Part shown: piece after piece, positions 59,450 through 59,761 of the stretch | Layout of the letters: each line of letters starts with the position of its first letter | Position numbering within the stretch: the stretch's first letter is position 1 | From: Rhodospirillales bacterium BBD 1991-14 | Lineage (GTDB): Bacteria > Pseudomonadota > Alphaproteobacteria > Kiloniellales > Kiloniellaceae | DNA length: 64,000 nt | Assembly (NCBI GenBank): GCA_001657395.1 | Contig: LYSY01000002.1 | Location: 682,001-746,000, forward strand | Direction: 5' to 3' | The notes under the pieces: generated by a model | What the model saw: the letters and a program-made list of their open reading frames with translations, nothing else | Databases searched by the model: none | Told to the model about the DNA's origin: nothing | Position numbers and translations under genes: made by a program

Positions 59450-59483
59450 TGTCAATGTAAATTGACGTCTAGTACATTTGACA
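59450..59483. promoter_or_regulatory. 34-bp palindrome with two overlapping PpsR-like half-site pairs
   Basis: TGT-N12-ACG on the plus strand (59450-59467, TGTCAATGTAAATTGACG) and the same pattern on the minus strand (59483-59466, TGTCAAATGTACTAGACG) meet at GACGTC, making a large inverted repeat. The PpsR/CrtJ consensus in purple bacteria is TGT-N12-ACA; each of these differs only in the last base. The right arm contains TTGACA, a possible -35. Confidence 0.7.
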
Positions 59484-59507
59484 ATCCTTGAAAGATTGCC
59501 GTAGAGT
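59478..59507 (+). promoter_or_regulatory. candidate bchN promoter
   Basis: TTGACA (59478-59483), 18 bases, TAGAGT (59502-59507, four of six). The -35 sits inside the right arm of the PpsR-like palindrome, so a bound repressor would block polymerase. Transcription start would be about 59515, leaving a leader of some 240 bases to bchN. Confidence 0.5.
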
Positions 59508-59539
59508 CCTCGAAGCGTAACTGGCTCGAGGAACGCGCC

Positions 59540-59761
59540 GTGCAGCAGGCGATTGCAGGTCCCGAATGGCAGCGGCCGAGGGGTTTCCGGCCTGCCGCCG
59601 GCCGGCAAGACCCGGCCATGCCTCGTCCCGCACCTCGTCCCGCCCGGGGAGTGCTGAAGGCCGGCAGAGTGTCATGGCGCTTTGACATCTCCTTGGCGCC
59701 GGTCACTTCATGGGTGCCGGTCACTCCATCAGGTTTCGGGTCTCCGGGGCGCGGGTCATGA
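59540..59761 (+). CDS. possible 73-codon leader ORF coupled to bchN
   Basis: A GTG at 59540 has GAGGA (59528-59532) exactly seven bases ahead. The 73-residue frame ([21 protein letters not shown]... to [14 protein letters not shown], Arg/Pro-rich with two Trp) stops with TGA at 59759-59761, overlapping the bchN ATG as ATGA. It has no recognised domain. Part of its end comes from a small direct repeat (GCCGGTCACT at 59698-59707 and 59717-59726). A real leader peptide or chance frame are both possible. Confidence 0.35.
59670..59687. promoter_or_regulatory. PpsR consensus site TGT-N12-ACA
   Basis: TGTCATGGCGCTTTGACA matches TGT-N12-ACA exactly and TGTCA...TGACA symmetrically. It lies 71 bases upstream of the bchN start and inside the putative leader ORF. 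Confidence 0.65.

Follow-up and report, generated by a model that had tools for sequence, protein, structure and literature searches.

Two PpsR-type palindromes that overlap by 2 bp ahead of bchN (59450–59483) very probably constitute a composite PpsR operator laid over the sigma-70 promoter that would drive bchN-bchB-bchH, as judged from the DNA sequence. The window, i.e. the whole stretch of 64,000 nucleotides analysed here, corresponds to bases 682001–746000 of contig C15 of a 5.5-Mb genome and lies at one end of the photosynthesis gene cluster. The left palindrome, TGTCAATGTAAATTGACG (59450–59467, plus strand), is aligned in the congeners G019–G021 and in G098 and G105. The right palindrome, TGTCAAATGTACTAGACG (59466–59483, minus strand; CGTCTAGTACATTTGACA on the plus strand), has its outer half-site coinciding with the -35 element. 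Together they form a 34-bp element TGT-N12-ACGT-N12-ACA (no strand assigned) with palindrome centres 16 bp apart. The outer ends of the composite are the full TGTCAA/TTGACA, and each palindrome retains five of its six fixed letters owing to the overlap. A third, canonical PpsR-type site, TGTCATGGCGCTTTGACA (exact TGT-N12-ACA, plus strand), is a strong motif match at 59670–59687. All three sites were already located by the initial annotation of this DNA; it described the first two as TGT-N12-ACG sites standing back to back and noted neither their overlap, which describes the pair better, nor its conservation. Both the third site and the composite conform to the PpsR/CrtJ operator pattern TGT-N12-ACA (preferably TGTCA-N8-TGACA). 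The 16-bp distance departs from that of canonical tandem pairs, which have a gap of 7–9 bp and centres 25–27 bp apart.

Taken singly, such palindromes do not exceed chance: TGT-N12-ACG is found 13 times in the window (15.1 expected) and TGT-N12-ACA twice (3.8 expected). In combination they do exceed it. The composite pattern TGT-N12-ACGT-N12-ACA is found at one place in the window without mismatches, 0.30 being expected with one mismatch allowed, and 25 of 100 shuffled windows contained a match at that tolerance. In the 5.5-Mb genome the pattern is unique, and the reversed control gives no match.

The predicted sigma-70 promoter TTGACA-N18-TAGAGT (59478–59507, plus strand) is composed of the -35 element at 59478–59483 and the hexamer TAGAGT at 59502–59507. 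It is the sole sigma-70-like match within 59271–59800, with 0.1 expected in shuffles, and its -35 element, 18-bp spacing and TAGAGTC are retained in G019–G021, G098 and G105. The overlap of PpsR-type sites with a predicted promoter of a bch gene, as proposed initially, is present at bchN; the promoter itself was also correctly recognised, and only its -35 element was misplaced, lying in the second palindrome (59466–59483) and not in the first (59450–59467). The predicted 5' leader of bchN extends over 59508–59757 (plus strand) and shares the stretch GCCGTGCAGCAGG with G098. The leaders of the congeners G019–G021 (compare window 59520–59580) are conserved after the promoter and contain GGCGCGTGGGGAGGAGTTCGGTGCAGAC, of which GCCGTGCAGCAGG is a related form; GGCGCGTGGGGAGGAGTTCGGTGCAGAC may represent a leader ORF that has a GTG start and a ribosome-binding site. 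The Rfam search of 59100–59900 returned a tRNA alone and no leader RNA match. This tRNA-Arg(ACG) gene (59194–59270, plus strand) adjoins the cluster and is no part of the operator; in G098 a tRNA-Met gene is situated just upstream of the cluster.

Three genes follow the leader on the plus strand: bchN (59758–61038, 426 aa, NCBIfam TIGR01279 and NF002768 above cut-off, with a start that agrees with those in G098 and G105), bchB (61042–62604, TIGR01278 above cut-off) and bchH (62579–64000, running past the window end; L004:4579-8283, NF009942 and TIGR02025 above cut-off). Beyond the window the cluster comprises acsF, 5-aminolevulinate synthase, bchC, crtD, bchD, bchO, a PpaA/AerR-like gene, ppsR, bchP and bchE, as well as a crtB-like gene that scores below its family cut-off. 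The PpaA/AerR-like gene was assigned from its position and tblastn; of the ten named plasmid records, nine annotate the gene at the corresponding position as cobalamin-binding or cobalamin-dependent.

The initial annotation had named a ppsR gene and recurrence of the motif at other photosynthesis promoters as the things to look for, and both were found. A single PpsR above cut-off is encoded in the genome (TIGR02040, 474.6 bits vs 275.4, C15:784756-786084), 39 kb beyond the window; all 52 genomes inspected (52/52) have a PpsR above cut-off. The solved structures related to it by sequence are PpsR entries only, with 4hh2 the first. Its HTH region shares 71–86% identity with those of 20 Cys-type PpsR proteins, all of which come from genomes with the composite (at most one mismatch) at the locus. 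Four places in the genome carry the form TGTCA-N8-TGACA; each is within the photosynthesis cluster, and one of them is the third site. The ACG-ended form occurs at two places in the cluster and three elsewhere in the genome, with one match in the reversed control. Other PpsR-type pairs of the cluster, 25 or 26 bp apart, are located at 768536/768562 (bchC), 770719/770744 (crtD), 786187/786213 and 792018/792044 (bchE), and single sites at 776268, 780316 and 783401.

Residue 408 of this PpsR (G000:C15:784756-786123, L006:4756-6123) is Ser at the position of the redox Cys of the HTH. Among 36 tblastn rows the position is occupied by Cys in 23, Tyr in 10 and Ser in three, the latter being the window organism, G098 and G105. 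The Cys420Ser variant of CrtJ is said, in the part of PMC9144470 available, to bind DNA about four-fold tighter; by analogy, Ser408 PpsR may be a naturally "locked" repressor. Since Ser takes the place of the redox Cys, the signal may also differ from that of Rhodobacter.

Conservation of the composite was followed in the best 80 of at least 572 confirmed bchN loci, a sample that leans towards similarity to the window. Four loci have no BchF match (L011, L034, L052, L063) and two have too little upstream sequence for the 350-bp scan (L062, L077), leaving 74 bchF regions, the record titles of which are alpha-, beta- or gammaproteobacterial or unassigned. The composite with at most one mismatch stands ahead of bchF in 66 of these 74 loci and is absent at that tolerance from eight (from the best 80 of at least 572): 64 lie within the 350-bp slice, 51 of them with no mismatch, and two, both without mismatches, were added back from beyond it (L035 and L083, i.e. 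congeners G020 and G019). One of the loci, L015, has no exact TTGACA at its right end, yet its composite has no mismatch. Letters outside the selected ones are conserved too, namely A5 and A6 (59/64 each), T29 and T30 (64/64) and G31 (63/64), in these regions from the best 80 of at least 572 loci. In the scan of 48 whole genomes the strict pattern was found in 32 and was absent from 16; it occupies one place in 31 of the 32, and the reversed control gave 0/48. The extra place (G054:C51, L178:7405-7438) is ahead of a BchH-like frame, a second copy recognised by eye, which has its own composite and promoter separate from those of bchF.

The distance between site centres was counted for sites with at most one mismatch. 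An offset of 16 bp is found in 51 of 74 bchF regions (0.04 in shuffles, which preserve single-letter content only) and an offset of 26 bp in one of 74, again from the best 80 of at least 572 loci. For bchC (30 loci of 51 places) the relation is inverse, with offset 26 in 21/30 (0.05 in the same kind of shuffles) and offset 16 in 1/30. The spacing of these predicted PpsR sites is promoter-specific, 16 bp at bchF and 26 bp at bchC. Chance pairing of sites was rejected on the grounds of the uniqueness of the composite in the genome, the empty control of the strict pattern in 48 genomes and the exact spacing relative to shuffles.

A ppaA-like gene is divergent and upstream of bchF in 71 of 76 loci (best 80 of at least 572). 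Three loci have a second composite between bchF and ppaA, on the side of ppaA and 230–288 bp from the first one (L035:1183-1216, L083:1279-1312 and L177:3727-3760); it possibly reflects autoregulation of ppaA-ppsR. For the promoter-side composite, assignment to the divergent ppaA-ppsR operon was considered and rejected, as the window, G098 and G105 have this element ahead of bchN and no bchF upstream.

The geometry accounts for the ACG half-sites. In the overlap register the inner ACA of the left palindrome and the inner TGT of the right one share two bases; the shared CG preserves the middle letter of each site at the cost of one letter per site. The central ACGT is a letter compromise in the predicted operator, with two of three inner half-site letters retained by each palindrome. 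Because two bases are shared, C is expected at the centre where the left site is present and T where it is absent. A scan for the right-half anchor GT-N9-TTGACA, with L062 included, gave 78 matches; of the 75 regions upstream of bchF (from the best 80 of at least 572 bchN loci), 74 contain it. The centre base is C in 68 matches, 54 of which have the entire left TGT and 14 two of its three letters. It is A in one secondary match with two left letters (L078), and T in all nine with fewer left letters, six of these being main sites. T is also the centre base of the eight Rhodobacterales records. When the set is enlarged to 89 regions by ten named plasmid records, the window and four order relatives, it comprises 74 with C and a left site and 13 with T and none; T together with a two- or three-letter left match is seen in two of the 89 (L180, L186).

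Fisher's test on the 68 + 6 main sites gives 5e-9 with kinship ignored. On the BchN tree (quick method, SH-aLRT support only, midpoint root) the left site changes seven times and the centre base six times, and this relatedness weakens the counts. The independent-pairs test of centre base vs left site gives a median p of 0.5 on too few supported pairs; the left site was defined in two ways there, the second chosen after the odd Rhodobacterales rows L180 and L186, and under it L049 and L072 mismatch instead. The initial annotation ascribed ACG to a divergent PpsR. This explanation was abandoned: the PpsR is far above its family cut-off with an HTH 71–86% identical to others, the centre base follows the pattern described, and an ACG half-site is reported at a Rubrivivax PpsR site (available text of PMC4452267). 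ACG also ends two sites of the cluster that overlap no other (776268, 786187).

The composite is missing at one mismatch from the bchF promoter in eight of ten named plasmid records, all from Rhodobacterales (Roseobacter, two; Sulfitobacter, three; Tateyamaria, Thalassococcus and Roseinatronobacter). These eight plasmids have one perfect TGT-N12-ACA over the predicted -35 element and at least one more perfect site upstream towards ppaA; Sulfitobacter guttiformis has one chance 1-mismatch composite match, on the ppaA-side site. The remaining two records are those of Thiodictyon (a gammaproteobacterium), with a perfect composite, and Novosphingobium, with a mismatch. L072, labelled Rhodobacteraceae, speaks against a clean split by group: its composite has one mismatch, and the left half-site is poor. 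On the BchN tree L072 falls outside the Rhodobacterales plasmid group. The composite is common to most photosynthetic proteobacteria compared and absent from the sampled relatives of the best-studied laboratory species. The promoters of D. shibae, R. capsulatus and R. sphaeroides lie outside the compared set, and we infer the single-site form for the bchF promoter of D. shibae.

In the three congeners G019–G021 the sequence TGTCCAT...TTTACGTC...AAACTTGACA-N18-TAGAGT stands ahead of bchF. By contrast with this order, bchN directly follows the composite and TTGACA-N18-TAGAGTCC in the window and in G098 and G105, without bchF; searches for BchF were negative in 12-kb stretches of the latter two genomes and, at 1e-10, in the window stretch 57001–64000. 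The bchF gene of the window genome is 41 kb away and divergent from ppaA-ppsR. Its promoter, in which the composite centre is short by three bases, aligns with the bchN promoter with a score of 74 vs a maximum of 56 in 300 single-letter shuffles. Splitting of the operon together with copying of the promoter is a plausible origin of this arrangement. The BchN protein encoded in the window shares 83% identity with its counterpart in G098 and 82% with the one in G105, two genomes that belong to other families of the order, and only 74–77% with those of the three congeners with bchN; the tree unites the window, G098 and G105 with SH-aLRT 98. A bchN gene at 1e-100 is present in only four of 23 family genomes, own included. 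Lateral transfer of bchN is likely in view of this grouping with other families and of the scarcity of the gene within its own.

PpsR probably binds the composite as one unit over the -35 element. The bound form would likely be a tetramer or a pair of dimers that cooperate. Dimers, tetramers and octamers of PpsR are described in the available part of PMC3949515; according to that of PMC9144470, CrtJ occupies promoters in tetrameric form, with the two palindromes close or distant. By arithmetic, 16 bp correspond to ~1.5 turns, so the palindromes would face roughly opposite sides of the DNA, like the usual 26-bp pairs (~2.5 turns), which are one turn longer. Bound PpsR would cover the -35 element, exclude RNA polymerase and repress bchNBH until an antirepressor, light or a redox signal relieves the repression.

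The eight Rhodobacterales bchF promoters, which have the right site only, with a perfect TGT, suggest another scheme, in which the right palindrome (59466–59483, over -35) alone is the working PpsR site and the left one is either an alternative target or a weak half-site with an auxiliary role in tuning affinity. The left half-site moreover varies between lineages several times on the tree, and the right one is better conserved. This scheme is unlikely, if worth serious attention, as it does not agree with the conservation of the unselected left letters A5 and A6, with the offset of exactly 16 bp (both in regions from the best 80 of at least 572 loci) or with the replacement of T by C in the right site where the left site is present. 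Far less probable is that the 34-bp palindrome belongs to a different regulator sharing the TGT/ACA ends by chance. Its spacing is unlike that of proven PpsR pairs and its centre, TTGACGTC(A/T)A, is itself nearly palindromic; however, both halves match the PpsR consensus, the same half-site letters occur with 26-bp spacing at bchC in the same genomes, and in regions that lack the left half-site the right one reads TGT. The genes nearby also argue against this regulator, given the divergent ppaA-like gene at 71 of 76 loci from the best 80 of at least 572 and the position of this gene beside ppsR in all but one of the ten named plasmid records. The element is best read as an operator of the repressor PpsR whose overlapping geometry is both unusual and conserved, a reading in which we place considerable confidence.

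The third site, found among the species compared in the window species only, is probably a genuine target of PpsR. Its centre lies inside the predicted leader, downstream of the centres of the two overlapping palindromes by 204 and 220 bp. It would act as a species-specific accessory PpsR site, either a roadblock or a loop anchor. A conserved leader feature was rejected: no such site lies between the composite and bchF in any of 26 loci with leaders longer than 100 bp (from the best 80 of at least 572). It is doubtful that, as suggested initially, this site and the composite form a DNA loop closing the promoter. The motif is strong, all four genomic places of its TGTCA-N8-TGACA form are in the cluster, and by arithmetic 220 bp comes near an integral number of helical turns. 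The available part of PMC9144470 states that looping likely brings distant CrtJ sites together, and R. capsulatus puc has two such sites 240 bp apart, a long-distance pair comparable with ours (PMC4452267, available part). Against the loop is the absence of a counterpart in G098, G105 and the 26 long-leader loci. Unlike the puc sites as the available text describes them, the third site is downstream of the promoter, in the predicted leader, and unconserved.

It is conceivable, with a likelihood slightly below even, that the 16-bp composite is, in proteobacteria, the ancestral operator of bchFNBH, bound by a PpsR tetramer as a unit with its own occupancy rule and lost in Rhodobacterales; the tree is midpoint-rooted and does not fix the direction of this change. 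If so, one repressor would exert two regulatory logics through spacing alone (the 16-bp composite vs 26-bp pairs), and what is commonly described for PpsR at bchF would be a derived state, the composite having been lost in the best-studied lineage, Rhodobacterales. The promoter-specific overlap geometry offers a natural experiment with one repressor at bchFNBH vs bchC. Rubrivivax is a tractable test species, R. benzoatilyticus (L059) having the composite at bchF. Results obtained on Rhodobacter-group bchF promoters may not transfer to other phototrophs, and site scans that bar overlaps or require perfect TGT/ACA will miss the composite operator.

For DtxR/IdeR, Zur and QacR, operators are known that overlap and accommodate two dimers, one on each face of the DNA. 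The idea of two dimers on overlapping palindromes is shared with them; the protein families are unrelated, and such a binding mode at bchN is putative. No paper on photosynthesis genes of Pelagibius was found in the literature search. Within the PpsR/CrtJ family, bchC of R. capsulatus has palindromes at -47 to -30 and -21 to -4 (available text of PMC5362033). As far as that text goes, the two systems have in common TGT-N12-ACA palindromes, the repressor family and one palindrome spanning the -35 element; the R. capsulatus palindromes are 8 bp apart and lie on -35 and -10, whereas the bchN pair overlaps by 2 bp, extends upstream of -35 and leaves -10 free. The bchF promoter of D. shibae has four predicted PpsR sites, and mutation of a half-site derepresses bchF-lacZ to about the level of the ppsR mutant (PMC10890935, available part). 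It shares with the present case the same operon promoter and a PpsR site over -35, as far as the available text describes it; in its Rhodobacterales plasmid relatives this site is single and non-overlapping, unlike the composite. The Rubrivivax pucB and crtI pairs have gaps of 9 and 8 bp, and the spacing of PpsR sites is reported to alter cooperativity and redox response (PMC4452267, available part). As presented there, these pairs share the TGT-N12-ACG variant with the bchN sites and differ in being free of overlap; bchF has no occurrence in the available text of that paper. Overlapping PpsR palindromes or a 16-bp spacing are not described in the accessible portions of the open PpsR/CrtJ literature searched; a mention in older papers is possible. 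Compared with all these systems, the operator ahead of bchN is of a known kind, and its overlapping form, which is conserved, seems to be new.
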